This document shows positions 408 to 22,466 of a stretch of 26,978 nt of DNA, one piece after another. The number at the start of each line of letters is the position of its first letter. Position 1 is the stretch's first letter. The notes beneath the pieces are model-generated. The model saw only the letters and a list, made by a program, of their open reading frames with translations. It was not told the origin of the DNA and made no database searches. Where the stretch lies: positions 1 through 26,978 of IMG/VR virus record IMGVR_UViG_3300047457_000824, one strand, 5' to 3'. This DNA is from a virus. The translations under genes and the position numbers were made by a program.

Positions 408-430
408 GTGGGGGCATTCCTTGCCCCCAC
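408..430 (+). terminator. Strong hairpin, probable terminator
   Basis: GTGGGGGCA (408-416) pairs perfectly with TGCCCCCAC (422-430) across a 5-base loop. The trailing sequence AGTTTCATTT is a weak U tract. It sits between the stop of the first gene (377) and a consensus promoter (446), which fits a transcription-unit boundary. The rest of the 378-494 gap holds only this hairpin, the promoter and the next ribosome site. Confidence 0.7.
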
Positions 431-445
431 AGTTTCATTTGGGGT

Positions 446-474
446 TTGACATTGAATTCTTCTGGATATATAAT
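446..474 (+). promoter_or_regulatory. Perfect-consensus sigma70 promoter for the base-modification operon
   Basis: TTGACA at 446-451 and TATAAT at 469-474 are separated by exactly 17 bases, matching the bacterial housekeeping consensus at all twelve positions. The next base pair is AG. The ribosome site AGGAG (484-488) and the ATG at 495 follow directly. This implies early or middle transcription by unmodified host RNA polymerase of the whole run of overlapping genes from 495 to at least 6223. Confidence 0.85.
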
Positions 475-494
475 AGCATGAGCAGGAGAAAATT

Positions 495-1787
495 ATGACC
501 AAAGTAATTATTGCAAAAACTAAACTTGACTGTGAGCATTTGCTTGGTCAGTTCTTGAATGATTCTCATTTTGATAATGTAATCAATGAAGACACGGATT
601 GCTATTTTCAAAGCGAAGATGAAGGCAATATTGCATTCAAGTTTCGCAAAAACTACTTCAGCAAAGAACAACAAGATGCTGCATATGCAGGATTGCGTGA
701 AGCAGCAACACAAACTCAGAATCGTGGACTTGCTGCTGGACCGAAAGGTGAAAAATGTGGTGGTCGCGAATGGGTGACTGAATTCCAATTGCGTGCTATT
801 GACTATCTCAAGAAGCAAGCAGAGAATTCTGTCATTCAAGTCAATGTACAAGATGAAATTGATTTACTTCGTGCAAGATATGAAAGCGAGAATACATCAA
901 GAGGTCTTGTTTGGTTGAGTGCAAAAGTCAAAGAAGATGAATTTGATTTTGAAACTTGGTTGAAGAAAGTTGTAACACTTCCAATTCAAGAAAGAAAACA
1001 AGAAGCACAAGGAGTTGAAGAGACTTATATTTCTGATACAACTTATGCCAATGTTGTATTCTCTGGCATTGCTGGTTGGTTTGATCGTTATCCTCGCATT
1101 CCTTATGGTCGTGCAACAGCGTACACTCAGCACTCATACGATAAATTCAAACTTGCGTTTCCATTTTTACAAACATTGGATCGCGGTTTTGCAGAGTTAC
1201 TACCAACTCGTCATGCTGCGCAGCGTGAAGCAGCAGATAAAATCGATCCAGCGTTTCTGGTTCCAGAAACTGTGTTCACTACGATTACTGTGAACAAAAC
1301 ATTTAGAACAGCAGCACATCGTGATGCTGGTGACTTTACAAATGGCTTGAGCAATCTTCTTGTTCTATCTAATAATGGAAACTTCACAGGTGGATATCTA
1401 ATTCTACCTGAAGTTCGTATTGCTGTGAATGTGCGACCAGGTGACTTGTTATTAGTTAATAATCATGAGTACATTCACGGCAATACACCTATTGAAATGC
1501 AAGATGAAGTCGCAGAGCGCGTGAGTCTTGTTTGTTACTTGCGTGAGAAGATGCTCGAACTTGGAAGTAAAGAATATGAAGATCATCGATATAATTATGT
1601 TGAGTCACGTCGAAAGAACAAAGAACACAGACTCCAGCGACGTCTTTGGAACGGTATTTCCGAAGGAATGTGGGACGAACAAGAGTGGTATGACTACTTG
1701 GAAAAGAATGGTGGAAGAAAGATGGTCGAGAAGTATCATCCAAAAGCATATGAAAAAATTTCTACCCTAGAAGATTTGTTCGACTGA
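495..1787 (+). CDS. JBP/TET-family 2-oxoglutarate/Fe(II) dioxygenase, probable DNA thymine (or 5-methylcytosine) hydroxylase
   Basis: A 430-aa protein whose residues about 190-350 match the JBP/TET DNA-base dioxygenase pattern. They show TAYT (208-211), a VFTTITVN block (260-267), RTAAHRDAGD with iron ligands H275 and D277, GGYLILPE, and HEYIHGNTP with the distal ligand H328. R342 in ERVSLVCYLRE is the likely 2-oxoglutarate-binding arginine. This is the same motif order as kinetoplastid JBP, which hydroxylates thymine in DNA to 5-hydroxymethyluracil. The N-terminal 180 residues contain PKGEKCGGREWVTEFQLRAI and look phage-specific; the C-terminal 80 residues are charged. It is the first gene after a perfect promoter and heads a run of hypermodification genes, which favours thymine as substrate. 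5-methylcytosine remains possible. AGGAG precedes the start. Confidence 0.85.
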   Translation: MTKVIIAKTKLDCEHLLGQFLNDSHFDNVINEDTDCYFQSEDEGNIAFKFRKNYFSKEQQDAAYAGLREAATQTQNRGLAAGPKGEKCGGREWVTEFQLRAIDYLKKQAENSVIQVNVQDEIDLLRARYESENTSRGLVWLSAKVKEDEFDFETWLKKVVTLPIQERKQEAQGVEETYISDTTYANVVFSGIAGWFDRYPRIPYGRATAYTQHSYDKFKLAFPFLQTLDRGFAELLPTRHAAQREAADKIDPAFLVPETVFTTITVNKTFRTAAHRDAGDFTNGLSNLLVLSNNGNFTGGYLILPEVRIAVNVRPGDLLLVNNHEYIHGNTPIEMQDEVAERVSLVCYLREKMLELGSKEYEDHRYNYVESRRKNKEHRLQRRLWNGISEGMWDEQEWYDYLEKNGGRKMVEKYHPKAYEKISTLEDLFD

Positions 1788-1788
1788 T

Positions 1789-2478
1789 ATGTGTGCAGTA
1801 ATTGGTGCTTATATTGATAATCCTAGTTCTAAGGATTTGATCACTCTCACAAATGTCTTTCGTGAATCTAGTATTCGTGGGTTGCATGCAACTGGTGTGT
1901 CATGGGTTTATGGTAATGGAATCCATACGATGATTTCTGCAACTCCAGCAGGAAAGTTTATTGAAGCGCATCCACTAGAAAAGATGATCAATGAAGACGG
2001 CAATTTATATCTGATTGGTCATTGCCGCTATTCAACATCTGATCTCAACTACAATCAACCACTATGGGATGAGAGTCTTGCGATTGTTCACAATGGCGTT
2101 GTGAGCCAAGAGATGCCTGAGAAGTGGAAAGATCTTTACGGATATGATTGTAAGACTCGTAATGATTCTGAGTTGATTCTTCATACACTCAAAGCAAATA
2201 AATCTCCGCTTGTTGAGTTTGCTGATGCCTCAATGGCTGTTGTTGAACTATACAAAGAAAAGAAACTTCGTTTCTATCGCAATGGCAAACGACCAATATA
2301 CTTTACTTCTTTGTCAAATGGTGTTATAATTACTTCTACGAAAGACATTGCTGTGCGCTCTGATCTTCCAGGATCTGCTGAAGTGCCGATGAATCATTAT
2401 GTTACTGTAACAAAGGGTGTCTTTCATATGAAGATGGTACTGATTGATAATGCGAAGGATTTACAACATGTACGATAA
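1789..2478 (+). CDS. Class II glutamine amidotransferase (Ntn-hydrolase)
   Basis: A 229-aa protein starting Met-Cys, so that Cys2 becomes the N-terminal nucleophile as in GlmS/PurF-type amidotransferases. Supporting motifs are GLHATG (31-36), GHCRYST (77-83, with the glutamine-binding Arg80) and HNG (101-103). Such domains hydrolyse glutamine and pass ammonia to a partner synthetase. No synthetase domain is fused here; the natural partner is the amidoligase encoded next, whose start overlaps this stop by 11 bases. The start falls two bases after the dioxygenase stop, so translation is probably coupled. Stand-alone class II amidotransferases paired with amidoligases are a known phage arrangement. 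The substrate is not visible from sequence. Confidence 0.85.
   Translation: MCAVIGAYIDNPSSKDLITLTNVFRESSIRGLHATGVSWVYGNGIHTMISATPAGKFIEAHPLEKMINEDGNLYLIGHCRYSTSDLNYNQPLWDESLAIVHNGVVSQEMPEKWKDLYGYDCKTRNDSELILHTLKANKSPLVEFADASMAVVELYKEKKLRFYRNGKRPIYFTSLSNGVIITSTKDIAVRSDLPGSAEVPMNHYVTVTKGVFHMKMVLIDNAKDLQHVR
2302..2330 (+). promoter_or_regulatory. Weak candidate sigma70 promoter inside the amidotransferase gene
   Basis: TTTACT (2302-2307) and TATAAT (2325-2330) are spaced by 17 bases. The -10 is perfect but the -35 matches only four of six positions and the site lies inside coding sequence, so chance is a real alternative. It would drive the amidoligase gene. Confidence 0.22.
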
Positions 2479-3340
2479 AACTACATTTACATATGGTGCT
2501 GAGATTGAATGGGGTGATATTGATCGCCGCATGAGCATTCCTCCGACTCTCGGTAAATGGGAATATGCTGAGACTGATATTGTAAATCTTCGCCCACCAT
2601 TTGAGTTTCGTGCATGTGACCCACTCGGCAAAGAACCGTATATGGGTGGCGAAGTCAACATGATGCCAACAAAGACATGGCAGGAACAAGTTGATCGTAT
2701 AATGAAACTTTATGAGATGTTTTTGGAATATGGCAACCAGCCAACGGCTTCATGTGTCAATCATGGTCACATTCATGTCTTTGTTCCAGGATTGAAAGAA
2801 GATGTTGCTGGTCTCAAGCGACTTGTCGGATACATTCAAGACAATCAGGCAGATACTATTGAAGCCTGTTATCAATTTCATGAGACATCTGAAATGAAGC
2901 AGTGCGATGGTGCCAAGATGTATCTGAAGTTTGATGGTGGTCGACCGATGCCAGAGTATATGTGCGATAATATTATCGAACTGACTACTGACTTTGATCA
3001 CTTTATCAAACTACATGCTGCTGGCAAGGATGGTGTATCAATGGGTCGCCCATTTCGATACGCAATCAATACTTACTGCATGAAGCATACTGGCACAATT
3101 GAGTTCCGTTGCTTCCGCTCGACAACAAAGCGAGAAGAAATGGAATCTCAATTTAGATTCGTAGAAAACTTCATCGATGCAGCACTCAACGGCGGACCGT
3201 CTGTTCGTGAAATTCTTGCTGAAGGAAATTATAAATTCCCACCATTCAAATGGAATCTTGATGAATACTTCGGTTGGCAGCAAACCAAGTATCCGAAAGA
3301 GCGTGGTGAAAAGAAACGTGAGTTTCATGACGCTGCGTGA
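2468..3340 (+). CDS. Amidoligase (glutamine-synthetase-fold COOH-NH2 ligase)
   Basis: A 290-aa protein with the amidoligase signature: GAEIEW near the N-terminus (residues 10-15, metal-binding glutamates E12 and E14), GEVN (61-64), a histidine cluster NHGHIHV (98-104, H99/H101/H103) and TIEFRCFRST toward the C-terminus. The family (Pfam amidoligase enzyme type) forms amide or peptide bonds between a carboxylate and an amine using ATP. The start at 2468 has AAGGA eight bases upstream and overlaps the amidotransferase stop; the more upstream in-frame ATGs lack this. With the glutamine amidotransferase before it and a GNAT acetyltransferase after it, it forms a decoration module that could amidate the amino acid attached to a modified base. 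The actual substrate is inference. Confidence 0.8.
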   Translation: MYDKTTFTYGAEIEWGDIDRRMSIPPTLGKWEYAETDIVNLRPPFEFRACDPLGKEPYMGGEVNMMPTKTWQEQVDRIMKLYEMFLEYGNQPTASCVNHGHIHVFVPGLKEDVAGLKRLVGYIQDNQADTIEACYQFHETSEMKQCDGAKMYLKFDGGRPMPEYMCDNIIELTTDFDHFIKLHAAGKDGVSMGRPFRYAINTYCMKHTGTIEFRCFRSTTKREEMESQFRFVENFIDAALNGGPSVREILAEGNYKFPPFKWNLDEYFGWQQTKYPKERGEKKREFHDAA

Positions 3341-3848
3341 AACAAGTCGCGATGAATTTGTCGCGCATATCACTGAAAGCAAAGCAGATTCTTTTGCTAA
3401 AACTTTCGTAGCAAAAGCAGATATGCAGGATCAGTGGCAATATTGTATTGGATATTGGGAAGGGGCGGCGGAGCAGGAACTGGCTGGCGCGATCATCACA
3501 ACTCGCTCGAAGAAAACCCCATACATATTCAATCTTCAGTTACTACACACTTTTGCTAAACATCGTCGTAAAGGTATTGCAAGAATACTTACTCAAGATT
3601 CTCTTGATCGCGCGCAAGGTCTCGGCACCAGTTACTATCGTGTTTCAGCAGAGCCTGGAGCAGTTGCATTCTATGAAGCAATGGGCTTTCGATTCTTAGG
3701 AAAACAGAAAAGTGGATGCTCTCTGAGCATGTTCAAGATCAATGGTACGAATTTCGCTGATGGGCTTTATGATCTTTCGGATCCTGTGATATATAACGCA
3801 GTGAATAAAAAAGGAAAGGGTGGTTGTGTCGAAGTCTTTGCGCCGTGA
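3327..3848 (+). CDS. GNAT-family N-acetyltransferase
   Basis: A 173-aa protein with the GNAT core. The acetyl-CoA loop is KHRRKGIARIL (78-88, R/QxxGxA pattern), followed by a helix and the motif SAEPGAVAFYEAMGFRFLG, typical of the C-terminal half of the fold. The start at 3327 overlaps the amidoligase stop by 14 bases; the long in-frame extension upstream is only a shadow of the amidoligase gene. GNAT enzymes acylate primary amines. In this neighbourhood the likely acceptor is an amine on the hypermodified base or its precursor, since GNATs occur in other phage thymidine-hypermodification clusters, but a protein or metabolite target cannot be excluded. Confidence 0.85.
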   Translation: MTLRETSRDEFVAHITESKADSFAKTFVAKADMQDQWQYCIGYWEGAAEQELAGAIITTRSKKTPYIFNLQLLHTFAKHRRKGIARILTQDSLDRAQGLGTSYYRVSAEPGAVAFYEAMGFRFLGKQKSGCSLSMFKINGTNFADGLYDLSDPVIYNAVNKKGKGGCVEVFAP

Positions 3849-4839
3849 ACAATTTATTCGCTGGTATGCGTGGTCATTGAAATATAATGATTGCGATCCA
3901 GCAGTGTGGTGTACAAATTATTTGCACAAGCGATACGAACACAATGACGAAGAACGTCTATGGTTTGCGTGGTTGTATGGTAACACATATCAACTACCAA
4001 CTGCATGGGTTCTGAAGAATGAGTTCCCAGATTATGAACTCGCTACTGTGGATCGTATTCGCTGGTGGAATAGTCACAACTACAAGAGACTGAGATACCA
4101 AACAGATACAAAGTGGAACAAGGGTCATTTGCCAGCCATGTTCGAATCTTATCAAGAGTTTATTGGCAATAGAACACAACGAGAAGTTTTGGAGAATTAT
4201 TATGGCGACAATGAACAACAAACTTTCGACAACCTTTGGAATAATCTTAAAAACTCTCTTTACAAATTTGGTCGCTATTCCACTTGGTTTTATATGCAGC
4301 ATCTCGCTCATACTGCTGGCATTGACTGCATACCTACTTCTCTCATGCTTTCTGATTATTCTGGCTCTCGCTCACATCGTAATGGTTTGCATCTTGCCCT
4401 CGGCGAAGATGACAAGTACGATACAAGACTTACTGCTGGAGAATGCAATGACCTTGAAAGTGAAGCGAAAGACATACTTGAAGAAACAAGAGGAAGATTT
4501 CCTGAACTCAAATTACAGGTAGATTTCTTCACGATGGAAACTTGCCTTTGTTCGTTCAAGAAAATCTTTCGTGAACATCATGGGCGATATCTTGGTTACT
4601 ATCTCGATCGCCAGTCTGAAGAAATTCAGCAAGCAGAAAAGGATGGCTGGACTGGTATTGAGTGGAATGTATTGTGGCAATCAAGAGATGAAACTCTTGA
4701 CCCAAGACTTGCAATTCGTAATGCTACAATCAACAAAGAAAAGTTTACTTCTTATGTGAGAAGTGGTAGAATAGATCGTCTTGAGTGGATGTTTTCAGAT
4801 GAAACCTCAGTACAACAAGGACTAGAAGCACTATGGTAA
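3826..4839 (+). CDS. Thymine-hypermodification protein: probable amino acid:DNA transferase (aGPT-Pplase family) or HMUDK helical-domain relative
   Basis: A 337-aa, Trp/Tyr-rich, probably all-helical protein. The features I associate with the alpha-glutamyl/putrescinyl-thymine pyrophosphorylase (amino acid:DNA transferase) group and the related 5-hmdU-kinase helical domain are the N-terminal SLRREQFIRWYAWSL block, a central RYSTWFYMQHLAHTAGI, SRSHRNGLHL, and a C-terminal ETCLCSFKKIFREHHGRYLG followed by YYLDRQSEEI. That assignment rests on recalled family patterns plus the adjacent kinase gene and needs profile confirmation. The proposed reaction is displacement of pyrophosphate from 5-pyrophosphoryloxymethyl-dU in DNA by an amino acid. 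The start is GTG, either 3826 (AAAGGG five bases upstream) or 3820; both overlap the GNAT gene. The kinase start overlaps this stop by 7 bases. Confidence 0.6.
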   Translation: MSKSLRREQFIRWYAWSLKYNDCDPAVWCTNYLHKRYEHNDEERLWFAWLYGNTYQLPTAWVLKNEFPDYELATVDRIRWWNSHNYKRLRYQTDTKWNKGHLPAMFESYQEFIGNRTQREVLENYYGDNEQQTFDNLWNNLKNSLYKFGRYSTWFYMQHLAHTAGIDCIPTSLMLSDYSGSRSHRNGLHLALGEDDKYDTRLTAGECNDLESEAKDILEETRGRFPELKLQVDFFTMETCLCSFKKIFREHHGRYLGYYLDRQSEEIQQAEKDGWTGIEWNVLWQSRDETLDPRLAIRNATINKEKFTSYVRSGRIDRLEWMFSDETSVQQGLEALW

Positions 4840-5405
4840 GAGTGATTGCAATGGGTGGTGAGCCAGCAACTGGCAAGACTACGTTGATGTTTCGATTGAT
4901 TTCGATGGCTGATGACTGGCAAGTTGTCAAGCCACAGAAGTTACTTGATGCAATGTATTCCAAGAAACTGAATCTGTATATTCTTGGCAAGTATGCAAAC
5001 GACGGTAATGTGTTTCAAGGAACAGATCGTTTGAGTATGGCTGTTCAACCAGATGCAGAGAAATTCTTTTCTGAACTATGGTATGAAGAAGGTGCGAAAA
5101 CAAATGTCATCTTTGAAGGTGATCGCCTGTTCAATGGTAAACTACTAGACAAACTTTCAGAGTGGTTTCCAAACTCATTCAAGGTTCTTGTTCTTTCAGC
5201 ATCACATGATATCAAAGAACAGCGCCATGTTGATCGTAAAGACGACCAAGATGACAAATTCAAAAATTCTCGTGCGACGAAAATCTCGAATATAATGGGG
5301 TCGCTGACTCTCATGGACTATATAGAGACAATGGTCAACGAAAATCTCGATGATCAGTCTAAGATTATTGACAATATTAGAAAATTTTACAACTGGAGTG
5401 AATAA
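4833..5405 (+). CDS. P-loop kinase, probable 5-hydroxymethyl-dU DNA kinase
   Basis: A 190-aa P-loop protein with Walker A GEPATGKT (residues 9-16). It also has LGKYANDGNVFQGTDRLSMA in the first half and VIFEGDRLFN near the middle. The GTDRLSM block after a GKY motif is what I recall of 5-hmdU DNA kinases, which phosphorylate 5-hydroxymethyluracil in DNA as the activating step of thymidine hypermodification. It overlaps the preceding transferase gene by 7 bases, and that pairing is the strongest context support. It is distinct from the dNMP kinase at 6230, which has a different P-loop and length. A generic nucleotide kinase role is the main alternative. AAGGA lies about 11 bases before the ATG. 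Confidence 0.72.
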   Translation: MVRVIAMGGEPATGKTTLMFRLISMADDWQVVKPQKLLDAMYSKKLNLYILGKYANDGNVFQGTDRLSMAVQPDAEKFFSELWYEEGAKTNVIFEGDRLFNGKLLDKLSEWFPNSFKVLVLSASHDIKEQRHVDRKDDQDDKFKNSRATKISNIMGSLTLMDYIETMVNENLDDQSKIIDNIRKFYNWSE

Positions 5406-5407
5406 TT

Positions 5408-6223
5408 ATGCAGTTAGAAGTCTCTGTAGAAGAACTACGCAAAAATAAACTATTTGTTGCAACCCCAATGTATGGTGGCTCTGCGCATGGAATGTATCTA
5501 AAGTCTTGCCTTGATCTTCAATCTGTGTGTACACAGTACGGCATTGAAGTTCGTTTTTCTTTCATCTTCAATGAATCTCTTATTACTCGTGCACGCAATT
5601 ATCTCGTAGATGAGTTCCTCCGAGCAGAAGGATTTACGCATCTATTATTCTTAGATGCCGATATTCATTTTGATCCACGCGATGTAATTGCATTGCTTGC
5701 TATGAATAAGGATGTCATTGGTGGACCATATCCAAAGAAATCGATCAAGTGGGGTGCAATCAAGGAAGGCGTGAAGCGTCATCCTGAAATTACTCCTGCT
5801 GATATGGAAAAGTTGGCTGGTGATTTCGTCTTCAATCCAGTTCCAGGAACAGAAAAGTTCTCAGTTGCTGAGCCGATTGAAGTTCTTGAGATTGGCACAG
5901 GTTACATGATGGTCAAGCGTGAAGTTTTCGGCAAGTTTGCTGAAGCATATCCACAATTGAAGTATCGTCCAGATCACGTTGGTCAAGCCAACTTCGATGG
6001 TTCACGTTACATTCATGCTTACTTTGACACTGTTATTGATAGCGTTGCAAATGGCGGTCGTGGTTCAGACCGTTACTTGTCTGAAGACTATATGTTCTGC
6101 CAGTGGTGGAGAAATATCGGTGGTCAAATTTGGTTATGTCCTTGGATGAAGACGCATCATGTTGGAACCTATGCGTTCACTGGTGATATGCCAGCCGTTG
6201 CAAACTTCGTCGGATCTCTATAA
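5408..6223 (+). CDS. GT-A-fold glycosyltransferase
   Basis: A 271-aa protein with ATPMYGG (18-24), an RARNYLVDEFL helix (61-71) and the metal-binding DxD in LLFLDADIHFDP (D83, D85). Further on are PYPKKSIKWG and LSEDYMFCQWWRNIGGQIWL, a likely acceptor-side or catalytic acidic region. This family is common in T4-like phages. There is no signal or membrane segment. GGAG (5395-5398) nine bases upstream supports the start, two bases after the kinase stop. Its position at the end of the base-modification run makes a DNA-base glycosyltransferase acting on hydroxymethyl pyrimidine an attractive idea. Glycosylation of host or virion surface molecules is equally compatible with the sequence. Confidence 0.75.
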   Translation: MQLEVSVEELRKNKLFVATPMYGGSAHGMYLKSCLDLQSVCTQYGIEVRFSFIFNESLITRARNYLVDEFLRAEGFTHLLFLDADIHFDPRDVIALLAMNKDVIGGPYPKKSIKWGAIKEGVKRHPEITPADMEKLAGDFVFNPVPGTEKFSVAEPIEVLEIGTGYMMVKREVFGKFAEAYPQLKYRPDHVGQANFDGSRYIHAYFDTVIDSVANGGRGSDRYLSEDYMFCQWWRNIGGQIWLCPWMKTHHVGTYAFTGDMPAVANFVGSL

Positions 6224-6229
6224 TCATAT

Positions 6230-6901
6230 ATGATTGTCGGACTCGTTGGCTTTATCGGAGCAGGGAAAGGTACAGTTGCAGATCTCTTGGTCGAACGTCA
6301 TGATTTCTTCAAAGAGAGTTTTGCAAATAGTGTGAAGGATTCCTGCGCCGCAGTGTTTGGTTGGAATCGTGCCATGCTTGAGGGTGACACTCCAGAATCT
6401 CGAGCATGGCGCGAACAACCAGATGAGTGGTGGTCTAAAAAGTTTGGTCGTGAATTCTCACCCAGACTCGCATTACAATTGATGGGCACAGAGGCAGGAA
6501 GGGATGTTTTTCATCCTGACCTCTGGGTTCACACAGTCTTGCGTCGATGCGAACAGGCACCATGGAATAATTATGTTATTGCTGATGTGAGATTCCCAAA
6601 TGAAATCAAGGCTATTAGAGATTCTGGGGGACATGTTATTCGTGTTCGTCGTGGTCCTGATCCTGAGTGGTATGATTTGGCTCGAGAGTGCAATCTGGGG
6701 TATCACAATCTAGATGTGATGCGTAATGCATATTCAGAAGTCCATTATTCTGAATGGGCTTGGATTGGTTCTGACTATGATATTGTAATGGATAATAATT
6801 GTAGTTTGGATGAGTTGACCAGTAGGGTTGACAAAATAGTTGATTCGTTATATAATAATCGTGTTGAAGCAATTGAGGTCGTAAATTATGAAACTTTCTG
6901 A
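6230..6901 (+). CDS. 1: Deoxynucleoside monophosphate kinase (T4 gp1-like)
   Basis: A 223-aa P-loop kinase. GFIGAGKGT (7-15) is Walker A, SFANSVKDSCAAVFGW resembles the substrate-binding helix, LQLMGTEAGRDVFHPDLWV is highly characteristic of T4 gp1-type dNMP kinases, and VIADVRFPNEIKAIRDSGG is the Walker B/NMP region. The enzyme phosphorylates dGMP, dTMP and, in T4, hydroxymethyl-dCMP to diphosphates for the replisome-coupled dNTP pool. The start follows the glycosyltransferase stop by six bases and has only a weak ribosome site. The 3' end overlaps the clamp gene by 14 bases and contains that gene's consensus promoter. Confidence 0.88.
   Translation: MIVGLVGFIGAGKGTVADLLVERHDFFKESFANSVKDSCAAVFGWNRAMLEGDTPESRAWREQPDEWWSKKFGREFSPRLALQLMGTEAGRDVFHPDLWVHTVLRRCEQAPWNNYVIADVRFPNEIKAIRDSGGHVIRVRRGPDPEWYDLARECNLGYHNLDVMRNAYSEVHYSEWAWIGSDYDIVMDNNCSLDELTSRVDKIVDSLYNNRVEAIEVVNYETF
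6828..6856 (+). promoter_or_regulatory. Perfect-consensus sigma70 promoter for the sliding clamp gene
   Basis: TTGACA (6828-6833) and TATAAT (6851-6856) with an exact 17-base spacer lie inside the 3' end of the dNMP kinase gene. The inferred start, near 6863, leaves a short leader of about 25 bases to the clamp ATG at 6888, with GAGG at 6875-6878. This gives the replication genes an entry point independent of the modification operon. Confidence 0.78.
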
Positions 6902-7571
6902 TGATACAGTGACAGTGCTCAAGAATTTCTCGAGCATCAACCAAAGTCTCCTTTTCAAGTCTGGCAATACTTTGAAAACCATTTCACCGCTGAAGACAAT
7001 CTTTGTCGAAGCAACAGTTGGTGAGAGTTTTCCAAAAGAATTTGCTTTATACGATTTGAATAAACTCCTCGCAAAGGTTTCTCTGTACAAGGATGCAGAG
7101 TTGGCGTTTGATGATGATAAAATCAATATCAGCACTGAGAATAAGAAGAAGTCTGATTATATCAAGTATTGTTCACCAAAGGTGATTGTAACAGCACCAG
7201 AAAAGCCAATTACATTCGGCGATCCTGATTGCTCGTTCAGCCTTTCGCAAGAAGATCTTGATTGGATGCGTAAGAGTGCTGGCATTTCTGGCTCACCAAA
7301 CTTTGTATTTGAGAGCGATGGTTCTACAATTCAGTTTATTGCAACTGATGTGAAGGATGATTCTGCTGATCAATCTAAGATTGAAATTGGATCAGTAACT
7401 GATGGTAAGACTTTCAAAGTTGTTATGAAGGTTGAAAACTTCAAGTTGCTTGATGGCTCATATGATGTTGCGATTGCAAAGAAAGGAATGGCGCAGTTCA
7501 AACACAAGACTGTTGCAATTACCTATTACATTGCGATTGAAGCATCAGCGTCGACATTTGGAGAAGATTGA
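6888..7571 (+). CDS. 45: DNA polymerase sliding clamp (gp45)
   Basis: A 227-aa protein, close to the T4 gp45 length of 228. The sequence has the acidic, beta-rich PCNA-like pattern: MKLSDDTVTVLKNFSSINQS at the start, an EFALYDLNKLLAKVSLY segment, YCSPKVIVTAPEKPITF in the middle and a C-terminal AITYYIAIEAS strand. The trimeric ring tethers gp43 to DNA and, in T4, also activates late transcription. It opens the clamp/clamp-loader block in T4 order (45, 44, 62, regA). GAGG sits nine bases before the ATG and a consensus promoter lies about 32 bases upstream. The polymerase encoded at 19923 ends in a hydrophobic tail suited to binding this clamp. Confidence 0.92.
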   Translation: MKLSDDTVTVLKNFSSINQSLLFKSGNTLKTISPLKTIFVEATVGESFPKEFALYDLNKLLAKVSLYKDAELAFDDDKINISTENKKKSDYIKYCSPKVIVTAPEKPITFGDPDCSFSLSQEDLDWMRKSAGISGSPNFVFESDGSTIQFIATDVKDDSADQSKIEIGSVTDGKTFKVVMKVENFKLLDGSYDVAIAKKGMAQFKHKTVAITYYIAIEASASTFGED

Positions 7572-7910: not shown

Positions 7911-8078
7911 ATGCATAAATCTGAATTGCCTATTCTGATCGTAATTCTGTTGACCGCAATTTTCGCTCTTGCGAACACATACTTCCATTGGATTCCGTAT
8001 TCTGCACCTCCAGTCATGTTGATGATTGGGATCGCATTATATTCGTTATGGGAGCATAAACGTGGCAACAAGACGTAA
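7911..8078 (+). CDS. Small membrane protein, two predicted transmembrane helices
   Basis: A 55-aa gene too short for most ORF filters. The ATG at 7911 has a perfect GGAG (7900-7903) seven bases upstream. The protein begins MHKSELPILIVILLTAIFAL, giving one hydrophobic helix (about residues 7-21), then a polar NTYFHW turn and a second hydrophobic stretch (APPVMLMIGIALYSLW). It ends in a charged HKRGNKT tail, as expected for an inner-membrane protein with the tail in the cytoplasm. It overlaps the following Tat-signal gene by 17 bases, suggesting coupled translation and possibly a shared role at the host membrane. No family is recognised. Confidence 0.72.
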   Translation: MHKSELPILIVILLTAIFALANTYFHWIPYSAPPVMLMIGIALYSLWEHKRGNKT

Positions 8079-8385
8079 TTTCTTCAAGTATCTTGGACTT
8101 GCTGGTGGTATTGCTGGTGGTGGCGTAGTTGCTGCCGCAGCCGTTTTACCAGATTCTGAAAAAGCAAAGTGTATCAAGGAAATTGAATCTACTGGTTACA
8201 ATGGCAAATTAGCCATTGGTGCTGAGTATGGTGAACTGCGTCCAGCAGAACCTAATACATTCCGTTTTGGATCGCAGTTTGTTCCTGGAACTCAAAGGCA
8301 TGTAAAAGCAAGTATGACTGTCGGACCAGATGGTAATATGTACTTGTATACAAACGGTAAATGGCGTAGAATAGTAACTGAGTGA
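8062..8385 (+). CDS. Predicted Tat-exported small protein
   Basis: A 107-aa protein with a GTG start at 8062, chosen because GGGAG (8050-8054) is seven bases upstream and because it places TRRNFFKYLGL at residues 3-13. This matches the twin-arginine motif S/T-R-R-x-F-x-K. A Gly/Ala-rich hydrophobic stretch (GIAGGGVVAAAAVL) follows, as in Tat signal peptides. The mature part (about residues 31-107) is soluble and has FVPGTQRHVKASMTVGPDGN and ends MYLYTNGKWRRIV. There is no clear A-x-A cleavage site, so it may stay membrane-anchored. It is unusual to find a predicted exported protein between the clamp and clamp-loader genes. The TTG-initiated extension upstream has no ribosome site. Confidence 0.75.
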   Translation: MATRRNFFKYLGLAGGIAGGGVVAAAAVLPDSEKAKCIKEIESTGYNGKLAIGAEYGELRPAEPNTFRFGSQFVPGTQRHVKASMTVGPDGNMYLYTNGKWRRIVTE

Positions 8386-12511: not shown

Positions 12512-12736
12512 ATGAAAAAGCAAACTGAAACATTGTTGAGTGAAGCGATTGATTTGGTGGATGCTGCTGATCATCTTCTTGCAAATACGATGTCGCAGTA
12601 TGAACTGAGCGCGAAAGATTGTTATGATCTTGCTGAGAAACTTGAGCGTGCTCGCAATCTTCTTTTGGTTGTTGGCGATCGCAAGTATCAAACTGAGTTG
12701 AACAAAATTCCGTTGCCTGAAGGAGTGCCGTTCTAA
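12512..12736 (+). CDS. Hypothetical helical protein
   Basis: A 74-aa protein, start at 12512 right after the preceding TGA, with a GGGG(T) ribosome-like site. It is strongly helical (TETLLSEAIDLVDAADHLLA, then YDLAEKLERARNLLLVV), so a short coiled coil is likely. The C-terminus LNKIPLPEGVPF is extended. No family recognised. The longer frame upstream is a shadow of the RHGGP gene. Confidence 0.62.
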   Translation: MKKQTETLLSEAIDLVDAADHLLANTMSQYELSAKDCYDLAEKLERARNLLLVVGDRKYQTELNKIPLPEGVPF

Positions 12737-12966
12737 TGGGATTTTTCAAAGATATTGAGATTGATGTCATTGACATGTATCACAGCGATGGCATGAAGGA
12801 GACTGAGATTGCCACTTCGCTGGGAATTTCTTTGACGCAGGTTCACGAGATTCTCGCAGCATATGATCGCCGCGATGATGATGCTGACGCTGATGAAGAA
12901 ATTGTCAGTTATGATGATCTGGTGTTTGATCCAGGTGATGTTGATTACAATGCGGAGCACTACTAA
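12736..12966 (+). CDS. Small acidic protein with a helix-turn-helix
   Basis: A 76-aa protein. DVIDMYHSDGMKETEIATSL followed by GISLTQVHEIL (about residues 10-41) reads as a helix-turn-helix of the sigma-region-4/LuxR sort: a helix, the turn around LGIS and a recognition helix. The C-terminal half is extremely acidic (RRDDDADADEEIVSYDDLVF) and would mimic nucleic acid charge or contact polymerase. It could be a small transcription modulator or inhibitor; that is inference. Start in a TAATG overlap, AAGGAG 12 bases upstream. Confidence 0.68.
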   Translation: MGFFKDIEIDVIDMYHSDGMKETEIATSLGISLTQVHEILAAYDRRDDDADADEEIVSYDDLVFDPGDVDYNAEHY

Positions 12967-13190
12967 TGACTGACATGGCAAGAATTGTTGAATTGAGCCG
13001 TCAACTCAAAGAGTTGGGTTGCGCTGTTGTAATCTTTACAGAGGAAGAACTGCGTGGCGTTCGTGCTGATTATGTTCAAGATCGTTTGATCGAACTTGGT
13101 TGGGATGTCATTGACACTCTTGCTCATGATATCGAGACAGAACGATTGGCTCCACCGACTGATGAGGATTGGAACTGGGCAATCAAATGA
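12966..13190 (+). CDS. Hypothetical small protein
   Basis: A 74-aa protein with GGAG (12955-12958) seven bases before the ATG, which overlaps the previous TAA by one base. The pattern LKELGCAVVIFTEEELRGVR looks like a beta-alpha unit, followed by YVQDRLIELGWDVIDTLAHD and an acidic tail ending DEDWNWAIK. No known family. The next small gene overlaps by 4 bases (ATGA). Confidence 0.65.
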   Translation: MTDMARIVELSRQLKELGCAVVIFTEEELRGVRADYVQDRLIELGWDVIDTLAHDIETERLAPPTDEDWNWAIK

Positions 13191-13297
13191 ATGATCCACA
13201 TTTGACATTCATCGTAGGCTTTCTTTTTGGTCTGATTGCAGGTATACTAGTCTGTATCCCAGCAAAACGAAAGGGGAGATATTATTATGATAAGTGA
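13187..13297 (+). CDS. 36-aa single-pass membrane microprotein
   Basis: A very short gene beginning in an ATGA overlap at 13187. The peptide is MNDPHLTFIVGFLFGLIAGI followed by LVCIPAKRKGRYYYDK. It has one hydrophobic helix of about 18 residues with glycine spacing (GFLFGLIAG) and a strongly basic tail, the N-out/C-in orientation predicted by the positive-inside rule. Phage single-helix proteins of this type often affect host membrane functions or superinfection. No homologue is recognised. The gene fills what would otherwise be a 96-base gap and its end overlaps the next start. Confidence 0.55.
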   Translation: MNDPHLTFIVGFLFGLIAGILVCIPAKRKGRYYYDK

Positions 13298-13508
13298 ATA
13301 TCGCCGTTCTATTCTTGCACCAAGGGCAAGAGTCCCGTTTGATGCGAGCAATCGCAAACATATGCTTGATTTTGCAAGGTTTGTGAAATATAATAGTTGG
13401 AGAGAAGGTTGCTCTTATTTCTTGGAAGATCCATACTCGGATATTCCTACGATGATTCGAGCCAAGATTGCTGATCATACTTTGTCTAAACTTGTGGAGA
13501 AAGTCTAA
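13287..13508 (+). CDS. Hypothetical small protein
   Basis: A 73-aa protein with an excellent GGGGAG ribosome site (13273-13278). It starts MISEYRRSILAPRARVPFDA and contains HMLDFARFVKYNSWREGCSY and IPTMIRAKIADHTLSKLVEK. Mixed helices, net basic. No known family. A possible internal promoter lies at 13366-13394. Confidence 0.65.
   Translation: MISEYRRSILAPRARVPFDASNRKHMLDFARFVKYNSWREGCSYFLEDPYSDIPTMIRAKIADHTLSKLVEKV
13366..13394 (+). promoter_or_regulatory. Candidate sigma70-type promoter inside a small gene
   Basis: TTGATT (13366-13371) and TATAAT (13389-13394, followed by AG) with a 17-base spacer. It sits inside the 13287-13508 gene and would serve the gene at 13508 and those after it. 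Support comes from sharing the TTG-N17-TATAATAG pattern with the stronger promoters in the window. Confidence 0.4.
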
Positions 13509-13696
13509 TGAGTGGAGGTGATTTTGAAGTGATGCCGAGAGGCACAATGGAAGAGTTGCGTGTGTTGCGCAAGTTTGTAAATGAAATGATTGCACTAACT
13601 GCAATTCATGACATGCCTGTGCCTTATGAAATGCGCGCAAAGATTAACGAAGTTAGTCGCTTCTATAACGAACATGTAGAAACTTATCCGCTATGA
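13508..13696 (+). CDS. Hypothetical small protein
   Basis: A 62-aa protein beginning in a TAATG overlap with GGAG about ten bases upstream. The main body is a long helix (MEELRVLRKFVNEMIALTAI) followed by MPVPYEMRAKINEVSRFYNE. Some phage small proteins with a similar helix-PVP-helix plan are known to me only as hypotheticals. No function assigned. Confidence 0.62.
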   Translation: MSGGDFEVMPRGTMEELRVLRKFVNEMIALTAIHDMPVPYEMRAKINEVSRFYNEHVETYPL

Positions 13697-14013
13697 TGAT
13701 CTATTGCGCTGCGCGTTTCAAACCCAAAAAGAAACGCAAAGCAAAAGGTGAAGTTGCTCGAAAGTATCGGCGCTCGGAAGCAGTTTCTGGTGTGTTGAGT
13801 ATTCCGAGTCTTTCATATGGACATCGTGTTGGTGCTGGCGATGCGCGAAAACTTGAGTCGTTGAACTCTGATCGTATCTTTACAGAAAAAAGAGAGAGCC
13901 TGAAATACACAGGCACTTTGGTGAGGGGTATTGCTACGATGCATAAATCGAACGCAGTACCAGTTATCAATGAAGAGCAGATGAAAGATATCTCGAGGAT
14001 GCGTCGCGGATGA
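13693..14013 (+). CDS. Hypothetical basic protein
   Basis: A 106-aa protein starting at 13693, or three bases later at a second ATG. The N-terminus is very basic (RFKPKKKRKAKGEVARKYRR), which suggests nucleic-acid or ribosome contact. The rest contains SIPSLSYGHRVGAGDARKLE and VRGIATMHKSNAVPVINEEQ, resembling hypothetical phage proteins with a conserved HKSN(A/L)VPV segment. No catalytic motif. It overlaps both neighbours by 4 bases. Confidence 0.68.
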   Translation: MMIYCAARFKPKKKRKAKGEVARKYRRSEAVSGVLSIPSLSYGHRVGAGDARKLESLNSDRIFTEKRESLKYTGTLVRGIATMHKSNAVPVINEEQMKDISRMRRG

Positions 14014-14177
14014 TCGGACGCATTCTCTGTTTCTTTGGTCTGCATAAATGGGAAGGATTGTGGCGAGAAAGCCGCTGCAGTTACTATCCCTTTGACATCC
14101 TTGTAAACAAAACTTGCAAACGATGCGGGAAAGTGGTTGTCCCGAAACAACCAAGTCGTCCATCTGATGAGGAATAA
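14010..14177 (+). CDS. 55-aa zinc-ribbon-like protein (DUF1660-like)
   Basis: A short gene starting in an ATGA overlap at 14010. The protein begins MIGRILCFFGLHKWEGLWRE and continues SRCSYYPFDILVNKTCKRCG, ending in a polar tail. The CFFGLHKW opening and terminal CKRCGK knuckle resemble the DUF1660 type of small prophage proteins (hydrophobic-Cys..GHKW...C..CG). Cysteines 36 and 39 plus His12 and Cys7 or Cys23 could bind zinc. Function unknown. Confidence 0.6.
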   Translation: MIGRILCFFGLHKWEGLWRESRCSYYPFDILVNKTCKRCGKVVVPKQPSRPSDEE

Positions 14178-14180
14178 TTT

Positions 14181-14390
14181 ATGAGTATTCGTTCAAAGGC
14201 TATTGTTGAAACGCTGAAGTCACTTGCATTTGTGACTGTTGTTGGTGTTGGTTGGTATATTCTTCTTGAGATTCTTGGTCTCCGATTGGGATTGATTCTC
14301 ATGCTTGTGAGCATGATGGGTTGGTTTGCTTGGTTGATATATGATTATTATGTCAACAAGTTTACCGTCGAAGAAAAGTTCAAACTTTGA
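14181..14390 (+). CDS. Small membrane protein, two transmembrane helices
   Basis: A 69-aa protein with a charged start (MSIRSKAIVETLKS), a first helix (LAFVTVVGVGWYILLEILGL), a short basic turn (LRLG) and a second helix (LILMLVSMMGWFAWLIYDYY), ending in a charged FTVEEKFKL tail. GAGGAA lies upstream of the ATG. Inner-membrane location with both ends cytoplasmic is likely. No family is recognised. The next gene starts inside this stop codon. Confidence 0.72.
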   Translation: MSIRSKAIVETLKSLAFVTVVGVGWYILLEILGLRLGLILMLVSMMGWFAWLIYDYYVNKFTVEEKFKL

Positions 14391-14572
14391 TCAGTCCCTG
14401 TAAAGGGATTTGCAAACTAGACACCCAACGTGAATATTGCGTTGGGTGTTTTCGCACAAAAGAAGAGATAACTGTTTGGACAAAGTTGCCTTTGTCAGAG
14501 CAGGAGCGTATAATAGAAGAATGCAGGCAACGTGAATATATACAACGTGATTCTCAAAATAATATTTTATAG
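14387..14572 (+). CDS. DUF1289 family protein
   Basis: A 61-aa protein with the DUF1289 signature: ISPCKGICKLDTQREYCVGC followed by FRTKEEITVW, with four cysteines (C5, C9, C18, C21) probably binding a metal, and then LPLSEQERIIEEC. The family is widespread in Proteobacteria, where its role is unknown. The only available start in frame is TTG at 14387, overlapping the previous TGA, because the conserved SPC motif begins at residue 3. This implies translational coupling to the membrane protein upstream. Likely acquired from a proteobacterial host. Confidence 0.8.
   Translation: MISPCKGICKLDTQREYCVGCFRTKEEITVWTKLPLSEQERIIEECRQREYIQRDSQNNIL
14486..14514 (+). promoter_or_regulatory. Candidate sigma70-type promoter before the gene at 14580
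   Basis: TTGCCT (14486-14491) and TATAAT (14509-14514, followed by AG) with a 17-base spacer, located inside the DUF1289 gene about 66 bases before the ATG at 14580. It shares the TTG-N17-TATAATAG pattern found at 446, 13366 and 22451. Confidence 0.48.
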
Positions 14573-14579
14573 GTGACTT

Positions 14580-15008
14580 ATGTCAAGAATGATATTTGAA
14601 TTTGAAGGTGAGATTTCTAGAGGTTCTTTTTATGATCGAAACTCTACAAAGTCTGTTACTATGCAGTTGAATGATGATGATCTGAGCGTCCATGAAATTC
14701 TAAATGAGTTTCAAAACTTTCTTTCTGCTGCTGGCTATAAATTTGAAGAAGGTGCAGAGTTGATCATTTCCAGTAAGAATGATGATTGGAATGATTCTTG
14801 GAGCACTGGCTCATGGAACGAAGAAGATGAAGTTAGAAGTAACCTTGATCTTGTTGATGCGCAGAAAAATTCAAAGTATAATTTCAGCGATGAAGAAGTC
14901 AACGCTGAAGTGATTCGAATTCGCGACAGCACTCCAGGATTGAGCGAGGAAGCATATGAACTTGCCGCATATCACAATCTTGCCAAGAAAGCAGACGAAG
15001 GAGTGTAA
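14580..15008 (+). CDS. Hypothetical acidic protein
   Basis: A 142-aa acidic protein. The first part (MIFEFEGEISRGSFYDRNST, TMQLNDDDLSVHEILNEFQN, FLSAAGYKF) looks like a small alpha/beta domain. The middle is an Asp/Glu/Trp/Ser-rich low-complexity stretch (KNDDWNDSWSTGSWNEEDEV), and the C-terminus is helical (SEEAYELAAYHNLAKKA). No family recognised. The start has a GGTGA site seven bases upstream. A basic 30-aa protein follows immediately. Confidence 0.68.
   Translation: MSRMIFEFEGEISRGSFYDRNSTKSVTMQLNDDDLSVHEILNEFQNFLSAAGYKFEEGAELIISSKNDDWNDSWSTGSWNEEDEVRSNLDLVDAQKNSKYNFSDEEVNAEVIRIRDSTPGLSEEAYELAAYHNLAKKADEGV
14854..14882 (+). promoter_or_regulatory. Weak candidate promoter before the 30-aa basic gene
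   Basis: TTGATG (14854-14859) and TATAAT (14877-14882) spaced by 17 bases inside the acidic protein gene. The -35 matches four of six positions. It would give a leader of about 120 bases to the gene at 15011. Confidence 0.27.
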
Positions 15009-15010
15009 TC

Positions 15011-15103: not shown

Positions 15104-15105
15104 TT

Positions 15106-15594: not shown

Positions 15595-15596
15595 TT

Positions 15597-19921: not shown

Positions 19922-19922
19922 T

Positions 19923-22466
19923 ATGTCCGATTTTTATACTAACATCTGCGTCTCTGGGAAGTTTATCCTTCTCAGAGGCGTAGAGAATGATAAGAGGGTC
20001 AGACGGAAGGTCGAATTCCGTCCGACCTTTTTTCTTTCCAGCCAAGAAAAGTCTGAGTATACAACTCTTGCTGGTGAGTATGTGAAACCAATTCAGCCAG
20101 GAACAATTCCTGAGTGTCGTGAATTCTTAGAGAGGTACGAAAGTGTCGACAATTTTCCTGTTTTTGGGAATAATCGCTATGAGTATGCTTATATTGCTGA
20201 TGAGTATCCTGACGATATTCTTTGGGATGTCAGTAAAATACTTATTGCCTATCTTGATATCGAAGTTGGATCCGAAAACGGATTTCCAGAACCAAGAGAT
20301 GCAAACGAATCAATCACAGCAATCTCTATCAAAGTCAAGGGTAATTATTTTGTGTTTGGTTGCGGCGATTATAACAAGCATCGTGACGACGTGCACTATG
20401 CAAAGTGTCGCGATGAGTCCGACCTTATACGAAGATTCCTCGACTTATGGACAAGATGGCATCCAGATGTAGTCACTGGTTGGAACGTCGAGCAATTCGA
20501 TATTCCATATCTTGCGAATCGTATCACCAAACTCTTTGGTGAAGATGAAGCCAAGAAACTTTCTCCTTGGAATCGTATCAGCAAACGCGATACTGTGATG
20601 ATGAATCGTCCTGTGCAGTTCTATGATATTTCTGGAATTGCAATTCTTGATTACATTCAACTCTATCGCAAGTTTACTTATTCACAGCAAGAGTCGTACA
20701 GACTAGACAATATTGCTCACGTTGAGTTGGGTGAAAAGAAATTAGATTACTCTGAATTCGAAACGCTGCACCAACTCTACAAGCACGACTATCAAAAATT
20801 CATTGAGTATAACATCAAGGATGTCGAGTTGGTCGAGAAACTCGAAGACAAGATGAAGTTGATTGAGTTGGCGTTGACTCTTGCTTATGACAACAAAGTA
20901 AACTACGATGATGTGTTCACGCAGGTTCGTATGTGGGACGCGATTGTCTACAATTACTTGTTGAAGAAAAAGATTGTCATCCCTCAAATGAAGAAGGGAT
21001 CAAAGAGTTCGCAGTATGAAGGTGCGTATGTCAAAGACCCGATCCTTGGCATGCACGAATGGGTTGCGTCATTTGACTTGAACAGTCTGTATCCGCACTT
21101 GATCATGCAGTATAACATTTCGATGGAGACTTTGATTGAACCAACGAAGTATACTGATAACATGCGTGGCTTTATTCAGAACTGTAATGCCAACGTTGAA
21201 AATCTACTCAATCAAGAAGTTGACACTGCAATTCTAAAAGATCTTGGTGTAACTGTAACGCCAAACGGTCAGCTGTTTCATGTGAACAAGGGTCAAGGTG
21301 TTCTGCCTGAGATTATGGATAGCATGTACAAAGACCGCACACGCTATAAGAAGTTGGCAATTGAAGCCAAGAAGAAAATCGAAACTGTTCTTGAAGATAA
21401 GAATCAAGTGCAGTATCTCGAGAAACAAGTCGCGCGATATAACAATCTTCAGTTGGCAAAGAAAGTCACGCTAAACTCTGCTTACGGTGCACTTGGCAAT
21501 CAATACTTCCGCTTCTTTGATATTCGTATCGCCGAGGGCATTACTACAGCAGGTCAGTTGTCTATTCGTTGGATTGAAAAGAAGATCAACGAGTATATGA
21601 ACAAACTTCTCAAGACTCAAGATGAAGATTATGTGATTGCTTCGGATACTGATTCGATCTATTTGAATATGGGTCCGTTGGTCAAGAAGTTGTATCCAAA
21701 TGTTGATGATACTAAAAAAGTCATCAAGTTTATGGATAAGGTTTGCGATGATAAGATCCAGCCGTTCATTGATGCATCGTATGAAGAACTGAAAGAATAT
21801 GTCAATGCATATCAACAGCGTATGGAAATGAAGCGTGAGTCTCTTGCAGACAAAGCAATCTGGACTGCGAAGAAACGATATATTCTCAACGTGTATAACA
21901 GCGAAGGTGTAGCGTATGCCAAACCTAAACTCAAGATCATGGGTCTTGAGGCTGTCAAATCTTCTACGCCGTCTGCTTGTCGTGCGAAGATTAAAGAAGC
22001 AATCAATATCATCATGACTCAGAGTCAAGATGATTTGCATAAGTTCATTGACAAGTTTCGTCTAGAGTTCAGAAAATTGCCTGTTGAAGATATTTCATTC
22101 CCAAGATCGGTAAATGGTCTTGGTGAGTATGGTGATTCTGCAAGCATCTTCAAGAAAGGCACACCAATTCACGTGAAGGGTGCTCTTGTCTACAATCACT
22201 TCTTGCGTGAACTGAATCTCACAAAACGATACCAACAAATTCAAGAGGGTGAGAAGATCAAGTTTGTTTATCTCAAGCAACCAAATATCTTCAACAACAA
22301 CACTCTTGCATTCTTATCTGGTTTACCAAAGCAACTGGGTGCTGAACAATATATTGATTATGACTTACAATTTGATAAGTCATTTCTTGAGCCTCTTGAT
22401 ATCATTTTATCTGCTATTGATTGGCAAAGTGAAAAAGTTGATTCGCTGGATTGCTTTTTTGAATAA
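19923..22466 (+). CDS. 43: Family B DNA polymerase (gp43)
   Basis: An 847-aa polymerase (T4 gp43 is 898). The 3'-5' exonuclease begins with YLDIEVGSENGFP (D112 and E114, the same numbering as in T4) and continues with VVTGWNVEQFDIPYL (184-198) and YNIKDVELVEKL. Polymerase motif A is SFDLNSLYPHLI (383-394, D385), motif B is KKVTLNSAYGALGNQYF (513-529), motif C is ASDTDSIY (573-580, D575 and D577) and the KxY-type motif is KKRYIL (650-655). The C-terminus SLDCFFE is a clamp-binding tail like the T4 end. The start at 19923 follows the Sm-like stop directly. The first 40 codons hold two strong hairpins and four AGA/AGG/CGG arginine codons, unlike the CGT-rich remainder. Confidence 0.95.
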   Translation: MSDFYTNICVSGKFILLRGVENDKRVRRKVEFRPTFFLSSQEKSEYTTLAGEYVKPIQPGTIPECREFLERYESVDNFPVFGNNRYEYAYIADEYPDDILWDVSKILIAYLDIEVGSENGFPEPRDANESITAISIKVKGNYFVFGCGDYNKHRDDVHYAKCRDESDLIRRFLDLWTRWHPDVVTGWNVEQFDIPYLANRITKLFGEDEAKKLSPWNRISKRDTVMMNRPVQFYDISGIAILDYIQLYRKFTYSQQESYRLDNIAHVELGEKKLDYSEFETLHQLYKHDYQKFIEYNIKDVELVEKLEDKMKLIELALTLAYDNKVNYDDVFTQVRMWDAIVYNYLLKKKIVIPQMKKGSKSSQYEGAYVKDPILGMHEWVASFDLNSLYPHLIMQYNISMETLIEPTKYTDNMRGFIQNCNANVENLLNQEVDTAILKDLGVTVTPNGQLFHVNKGQGVLPEIMDSMYKDRTRYKKLAIEAKKKIETVLEDKNQVQYLEKQVARYNNLQLAKKVTLNSAYGALGNQYFRFFDIRIAEGITTAGQLSIRWIEKKINEYMNKLLKTQDEDYVIASDTDSIYLNMGPLVKKLYPNVDDTKKVIKFMDKVCDDKIQPFIDASYEELKEYVNAYQQRMEMKRESLADKAIWTAKKRYILNVYNSEGVAYAKPKLKIMGLEAVKSSTPSACRAKIKEAINIIMTQSQDDLHKFIDKFRLEFRKLPVEDISFPRSVNGLGEYGDSASIFKKGTPIHVKGALVYNHFLRELNLTKRYQQIQEGEKIKFVYLKQPNIFNNNTLAFLSGLPKQLGAEQYIDYDLQFDKSFLEPLDIILSAIDWQSEKVDSLDCFFE
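19945..19984 (+). promoter_or_regulatory. 17-bp RNA hairpin inside the start of gene 43
   Basis: Bases 19945-19961 pair with 19968-19984 over 17 base pairs (14 Watson-Crick and 3 G-U) around a 6-base loop, TTTATC. It begins 22 bases after the gene 43 ATG, within the footprint of an initiating ribosome's downstream side. In T4, gp43 represses its own translation by binding a hairpin at its ribosome site; this element could serve a similar purpose although it is displaced into the coding region. Whether it binds gp43 is inference. Confidence 0.6.
19995..20033 (+). terminator. Intragenic terminator-like hairpin with U-run in gene 43 (possible attenuator)
   Basis: Bases 19995-20008 pair with 20016-20029 (one A/C mismatch, one G-U) around a 7-base loop, followed by TTTTTT ending at 20033, the layout of an intrinsic terminator. 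A competing perfect 7-bp helix, AAGGTCG (20007-20013) with CGACCTT (20023-20029), also ends at the T run. Two mutually exclusive stems inside codons 25-37, directly after the hairpin at 19945, suggest transcription attenuation of gene 43. Confidence 0.5.

Follow-up and report, generated by a model that had tools for sequence, protein, structure and literature searches.

A putative thymine-decorating operon in a T4-like phage fragment, with polymerase-type tails on its TET dioxygenase and amino acid:DNA transferase

Introduction

What does a phage do to its DNA with a TET/JBP dioxygenase, a glutamine amidotransferase, an amidoligase, a GNAT acetyltransferase, an amino acid:DNA transferase (ADDT) and a P-loop kinase, all encoded in one tight gene series? 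The question is raised by positions 446 to 5405 of IMG/VR record IMGVR_UViG_3300047457_000824, the whole of which (26,978 bases, hereafter the window) was analysed. The record is itself a fragment of a T4-like phage genome and also codes for the gp45 sliding clamp, a clamp loader, a DNA polymerase and other replication genes. An earlier interpretation made from the letters alone (the sequence-only reading) had proposed that thymine is oxidised in place and then conjugated to an amino acid. TET-initiated operons of such a kind were reportedly predicted by Iyer et al. in 2013, and Burke et al. are said to have shown in 2021 that phage TETs act on 5-methylcytosine (5mC).

We argue here, with moderate confidence, that the operon decorates thymine in new phage DNA by means of TET, kinase, ADDT and tailoring enzymes, with TET and ADDT docked on gp45. 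TET would first hydroxylate the methyl group of thymine in DNA, giving 5-hydroxymethyluracil (5-hmU), and the P-loop kinase would phosphorylate the hydroxyl. ADDT would then replace the phosphate with an amine supplied by an amino acid or a comparable nucleophile, after which the added carboxylate may be amidated by the amidotransferase and amidoligase and/or the amine acylated by the GNAT. The tails of TET and ADDT would dock on gp45, leaving the DNA-facing steps clamp-tethered and probably replication-coupled. The genes, their families, two predicted folds, synteny, cassette swapping, the absence of a methyltransferase from the genomes searched and the similarity of the tails are the observations; what each enzyme does and on which substrate, in what order the steps run and that the clamp is bound, we infer from them.

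Results

Relatives were gathered with a TET search, which yielded 80 contigs; four complete genomes that encode a related TET (Caulobacter phage Cr30, Stenotrophomonas phage DLP6, C48C1 and S-CBWM1) and a 173-kb relative (G001) were also compared. The first gene of the operon (495..1787, + strand, as are all six) encodes a protein of the TET/JBP 2-oxoglutarate-Fe(II) dioxygenase family, scoring 83.9 bits against PF12851 (cut-off 34.9, 9.5e-24). Its iron ligands H275, D277 and H328, which the sequence-only reading had picked out, are invariant together with Arg342 in an alignment of 35 sequences. The AlphaFold2 (AF2) model (pLDDT 89.8) has the double-stranded beta-helix TET fold and aligns with human TET2 (7ne3; Z 20.6, root-mean-square deviation 3.8, 257 aligned), as well as with CMD1 (Z 19.4) and NgTET1 (Z 19.1). 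The enzyme is most likely a thymine hydroxylase acting on DNA, for reasons given below.

The helical protein encoded at 3826 (or start 3820)..4839 had been taken for a hypermodification transferase, and both profile and fold agree. It matches the ADDT profile PF18724 at 70.7 bits (cut-off 26.2, 2e-19), and its AF2 model (pLDDT 89.1) aligns at Z 18.2 with 8z2m, the 5-phosphomethyl-deoxyuridine glycinyltransferase (PUGT) of phage PaMx11, the next entry outside PUGT reaching only Z 10.3. A sequence search of the PDB gave nothing convincing, and this match came through the fold alone. With the Cr30 ADDT as query, two loci were returned. The companion expectation, that the kinase at 4833..5405 (GKY...GTDRLSM) belongs to the known 5-hydroxymethyldeoxyuridine (5-hmdU) DNA kinases, did not hold. 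The profile searches that the sequence-only reading had named as its check thus placed the transferase in the ADDT family and left the kinase outside the 5-hmdU kinase profiles PF18723 and PF18747, to which it has no Pfam match and which hhalign relates to it at most as P-loop proteins (probability 0.8 and 0.1 %). Against Ploopntkinase3 (PF18751) the window protein scores 15.6 bits (cut-off 27) and 14/20 relatives match, the best at 6.1e-10. These profiles set it apart as a P-loop kinase of its own, with Ploopntkinase3 as the nearest family; it would phosphorylate the hydroxymethyl base in DNA.

The three putative tailoring enzymes were also correctly named, the amidoligase through its relatives. 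The protein encoded at 1789..2478 is by its profile a class-II glutamine amidotransferase (GATase_6 9.2e-12, above cut-off) with Cys2 as predicted nucleophile, the MC N-terminus being kept in relatives. The glutamine synthetase-like amidoligase (2468..3340) scores 14.6 bits against Amidoligase_2 (PF12224; 0.03, under the cut-off of 22), and its relatives match in 11/11 cases (best 3.3e-7), with the conserved motifs ExE, GGEV, HIHV and TIEFR. The GNAT (3336..3848) passes the Pfam cut-off (PF13673 8.1e-13) and is a candidate for adding an acyl cap to the added amine.

The TET protein of the window ends in ISTLEDLFD (1758..1784) and the ADDT in QGLEALW (4816..4836), both resembling the C-terminus of the phage's own DNA polymerase B (DSLDCFFE; 19923..22466, + strand). 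TETs of the window's type generally terminate in STLEDLF-like peptides, and the T4 DNA polymerase gp43 ends in ASLDFLFG. The hydrophobic-acidic C-termini of T4 gp43, gp55 and gp33 are gp45-binding epitopes (PMC2988020), and a gp45 clamp, the likely docking platform here, is encoded at 6888..7571 on the + strand (gp45-slide_C 4.9e-7; phrog_223 4.6e-62). All open reading frames (ORFs) of at least 80 residues were scanned with a regular expression for such tails, with shuffled sequences as control. In the window only TET, ADDT and the DNA polymerase matched, and the same three matched in the 173-kb relative, making 6 matches jointly against a shuffle mean of 0.34. When distinct ORFs from window-type loci were counted, the tail was present on 50/52 TETs, 30/41 ADDTs, 8/8 GT-B glycosyltransferases, 4/4 TET-associated glycosyltransferases (TAGTs), 3/3 polymerases and 7/20 of a second GNAT type (GNAT2), compared with 2/955 unassigned ORFs. 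None was found on the amidotransferases, amidoligases, first-type GNATs, kinases, glycosyltransferases of the 5408..6223 type, deoxynucleoside monophosphate (dNMP) kinases or gp45 proteins of these loci. TETs of the Melnitz type, which are linked to a methyltransferase, also carry a clamp-like tail.

A pattern-free test ranked every ORF by the similarity of its end to the polymerase tail of its own phage. In two ViI-like phages, ranks 1-3 were taken by ADDT and both members of the 5-hmdU kinase families, HMUDK_hel and HMUD2. These are Vibrio phage K446 (41 kb, 77 ORFs), whose polymerase ends in ARKLW and whose three enzymes end in TRKLW, TKRLW and TKKLW, respectively, and Escherichia phage PhaxI (55 kb, 139 ORFs), whose polymerase ends in VNLLSMMGKKG. 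The tail-sharing loci are L262 (K446, 12584-21185) and L261/L271 (PhaxI). TET and TAGT ranked 1-2/580 in DLP6, TET ranked 1/339 in the 173-kb relative and TAGT ranked 1/310 in Cr30. In C48C1 a D12 adenine methyltransferase came first, and TET shared second place with a baseplate protein. In Cygsa01 HMUDK_hel came near the top, HMUD2 and ADDT did not, and the test is weak there. Two genes stand out from these rankings. DLP6 AAY80_028 (L226:5235-6098), annotated as hypothetical, was flagged through its tail and then matched PF20691 at 9.9e-10, which makes it a TAGT. The C48C1 D12 adenine methyltransferase (L244:14480-15364) ends in ESTLDAFFG, its own polymerase in TLEDFFG, and it is possibly clamp-docked too.

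The DNA-facing enzymes are tailed and the small-molecule enzymes are not, the kinase of the window's type excepted; in K446 and PhaxI the members of the 5-hmdU kinase families do have the tail. These similarities suggest that TET and ADDT are probably clients of the sliding clamp and that hypermodification takes place on it. The tails might instead bind a partner other than the clamp, or resemble one another by chance, and the ends in K446 and PhaxI (RKLW, NLLSMM) are indeed unlike that of T4. We consider this quite improbable, as the tail follows each phage's own polymerase, as a shared clamp partner predicts, the regular expression matched far more often than in shuffled sequences, and the tail is absent from 33/33 podophage-type TETs, which had no gp45 in the contigs examined. 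Several observations nevertheless speak against clamp docking as proposed. The regular expressions were composed once the TET tails were known; the window-type kinase, expected to contact DNA, has the tail in 0/27 cases; the ranking misses the ADDT tail in the 173-kb relative; and in the window itself TET shares its score of 13 points with unrelated ORFs. Moreover, T4 alpha-glucosyltransferase (alpha-GT), which co-purifies with gp45, ends in FKEQFDIITK rather than in a polymerase-type tail, and its binding to gp45 is reportedly not what chiefly sets modification levels in T4 (PMC13216743).

We then compared the 51 loci that span TET to the downstream glycosyltransferase, window included; several of the contigs are near-duplicates, and the loci counted are therefore not independent of one another. 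ADDT, kinase and amidotransferase are all-or-none, being together in 34/51 loci and jointly absent from 17/51. Thirteen of the 34 have the order of the window (amidotransferase-amidoligase-GNAT-ADDT-kinase), 11 have the same order with an insert of ~445 aa, and the remaining 10 read amidotransferase-second GNAT-ADDT-kinase; the amidoligase is thus an optional member. In the 17 others the slot is filled by a GT-B glycosyltransferase (14) or TAGT (PF20691; 3). TET is constant, and its decoration module is exchanged at the same site, either an amino-acid or a sugar cassette. The trio of TET, ADDT and kinase also occurs in other gene orders, in DLP6-type phages (L212: ADDT-kinase-TET) and on contigs with podophage-type TETs (L203, L204: TET-ADDT-kinase). 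Cr30 itself has TET, TAGT, ADDT and kinase, and DLP6 has TET and TAGT.

Several genes in or near these cassettes were noted in passing. The ~445-aa gene that 11 relatives carry between GNAT and ADDT (L013:3529-4872, L027:5082-6413) has no Pfam match, and the assignment of the insert (447 aa) as ParB-like, made by reading the sequence, gained no confirmation from Pfam. Nor did Pfam confirm a PLP enzyme as fusion partner in L204:6868-9006, a 712-aa protein between TET and kinase whose C-terminal half is an ADDT and whose N-terminal half falls in phrog_3650. In Cr30, an annotated inositol-1-phosphate synthase (L003:17293-18474; KF301602.1 54208-55389) lies between ADDT/TAGT and a kinase homologue, a possible hint at an unusual sugar donor.

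The composition of the cassettes bears on whether the whole series serves DNA modification. It could be that TET, kinase and ADDT alone modify the DNA and that amidotransferase, amidoligase and GNAT form an unrelated cassette for another molecule. Stand-alone amidotransferases exist in phages without a TET match, amidoligase relatives occur in Vibrio phage 2.275.O and phage Simon, and none of the three window proteins is tailed. However, the amidotransferase comes and goes with ADDT and kinase, the amidotransferase-amidoligase pair adjoins ADDT-kinase-TET in L212 although the order there differs, and a GNAT type that occupies this slot is tailed in part, so we regard a separate cassette as unlikely. 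Within our proposal of a joint pathway, the retention of the amidotransferase where the amidoligase is absent counts against its proposed part in tailoring. We therefore dropped the idea that it merely serves the amidoligase; it may feed ammonia to another step.

A GT-A-like glycosyltransferase follows the kinase (5408..6223, + strand; Anp1 0.00022, under cut-off; phrog_1574 6e-60), and the end product could accordingly be a glycosylated, base-J-like base in which the amino-acid genes play a minor part. This gene shares the series and is present with either cassette, in every locus type, and the 17 relatives with another glycosyltransferase in place of the amino-acid cassette, three of them with TAGT, would suit such a product. 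However, the gene has homologues in Sinorhizobium phages and cyanophages without a match in the TET search, in Cr30 it adjoins gp45 rather than TET, and it lacks the tail; we hold this explanation to be very unlikely.

The remaining question is which base TET acts on. Sister TETs of the Melnitz type (L096-L166) have an HhaI-like C5-methyltransferase adjoining nearly every locus with enough flank. No C5-methyltransferase was found in any window-type locus, in the four complete genomes or in the 173-kb relative. In the latter, neither a thymidylate synthase (TS)-family enzyme of the dUMP-hydroxymethylase type nor ThyX was found (the window itself is a fragment), and as it lacks both, that phage would make neither hydroxymethyldeoxyuridine (hmdU) nor hydroxymethyldeoxycytidine as nucleotides by the known routes. 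In-DNA oxidation of thymine, as first proposed, is therefore the likelier start. The two groups also differ at position 350, which is Arg in 54/54 window-type TETs and in every readable podophage-type sequence, but Asp in 47/51 methyltransferase-linked TETs. In a profile alignment this position falls on the His of RISLVFYQH in TET2, which we take to be the base-contacting His1904.

Alternatively, TET may oxidise 5mC that a C5-methyltransferase of the host has made, with hydroxymethylcytosine as the base that the cassette decorates. The best-matching solved structures of the TET family are 5mC enzymes (CcTet also acts on N6-methyladenine), relatives of the kinase occur in systems that pair a C5-methyltransferase with TET, and D280, the other base-contacting position, is common to both TET groups. 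One distant relative, L217 (near-duplicate L218), is the sole case in which an Arg-type TET has a C5-methyltransferase, ~5 kb upstream, and it tells against thymine. Set against these are the missing methyltransferase in the complete genomes and the 173-kb relative, the replacement of Asp by R350, and the deoxyuridine derivative on which the solved structural relative of ADDT works, and we consider a cytosine target rather improbable. Because relatives lack a C5-methyltransferase, the sister TETs are nearly always beside one and the base-contacting position differs, we judge thymine to be about four times likelier than cytosine as the target. Elsewhere, the restriction result in the DLP6 paper is not clear-cut, and TET/JBP was not found in the KP15/KP27 paper.

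Transcription of the operon probably starts from a sigma70-type promoter (TTGACA-17-TATAAT, 446..474, + strand), a 12/12 match with a 17-base spacer, behind an intrinsic-terminator-like hairpin (408..430, + strand; sequence scan) that ends the upstream gene. The perfect promoter and tight operon of the sequence-only reading stand, the promoter being kept at 12/12 in 22/38 distinct upstream regions of relatives and neighbouring genes overlapping or almost touching. It is not the single perfect one, as the next lies at 6828-6856, ahead of gp45. The gene series runs past 5405 through the glycosyltransferase to a dNMP kinase (6230..6901, + strand; DNMK 2.1e-10), which closes it. The gene order is kept in tens of IMG/VR contigs and is thus not due to chance. 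Further downstream, the gene directly upstream of the clamp loader (8026-8385) encodes 119 aa that match nothing in Pfam and carry a twin-arginine-like stretch (ATRRNFFKYLG) at the N-terminus, and the replication gene region contains an FkbM methyltransferase, a GT2 glycosyltransferase, two Methyltransf_24-like proteins and another glycosyltransferase-like protein (15585-19236).

Discussion

Taken as a whole, the earlier interpretation is partly supported; it had overlooked both the swap with glycosyltransferase cassettes at the same site and the polymerase-type clamp tails on DNA-acting enzymes. The tails point to a more general arrangement, which we think rather probable: phages with gp45 would commonly give their base-decorating enzymes (TETs, TAGTs, 5-hmdU kinases, ADDTs and some methyltransferases) the clamp tail of their own polymerase, so that hypermodification is assembled on the clamp behind the fork, here starting with in-place thymine oxidation. 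To the question of how dense and selective hypermodification is achieved during fast replication, tailed enzymes riding the clamp would, if true, be a direct answer. No earlier report of hypermodification enzymes with a polymerase-type tail turned up in the literature searched, although one may exist. The tail doubles as a search tool, having led to the unannotated TAGT gene of DLP6. In addition, a single TET at this locus supplies cassettes that can be exchanged, amino-acid or sugar, and the choice of Arg350 or Asp is a candidate predictor of thymine versus cytosine oxidation.

Among known systems, T4 alpha-GT is an example of clamp binding by an enzyme that decorates DNA bases (PMC13216743), although without a polymerase-type tail. 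Base J of trypanosomatids (JBP1/2 and a glucosyltransferase) is likewise made by hydroxylating thymine in DNA and then decorating it (PMC6449724), but the system is eukaryotic and adds glucose, not an amino acid. The phage systems with C5-methyltransferase and TET (Melnitz, L096-L166; presumed to act on cytosine) share the TET fold family, a related P-loop kinase and a clamp-like TET tail, and differ in the adjoining methyltransferase and in Asp for Arg350, with no ADDT among the scanned Melnitz neighbours.

Closer in working are phages of the ViI, M6, phiW-14 and PaMx11 type, in which a 5-hydroxymethyl base is activated by a kinase, an amino acid is moved onto it by an enzyme of the ADDT or aGPT-PPlase fold, and tailoring follows. 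Such phages make 5-hmdU at the nucleotide stage (PMC6449724, PMC5977210), whereas in the operon this task would fall to TET, acting on DNA, and the 173-kb relative has no TS-family enzyme. The kinase here belongs to a different family, and amidotransferase-amidoligase tailoring is added. The operon thus resembles the ViI/M6-type pathway in its working but lacks two traits that define that pathway, the synthesis of hmdU at the nucleotide stage and a kinase of the known family. The predicted five-gene system of Rhodococcus phage Tonitrus has ParB-like, TET-like, aGPT-Pplase2 and 5-hmU kinase genes together (PMC11955845). Tonitrus is a phage of another type with a transferase of another clade, and amidotransferase, amidoligase, GNAT and clamp tails are not mentioned there, but what was proposed for it, a thymidine system initiated by TET (PMC11955845), is also what we propose for the operon.

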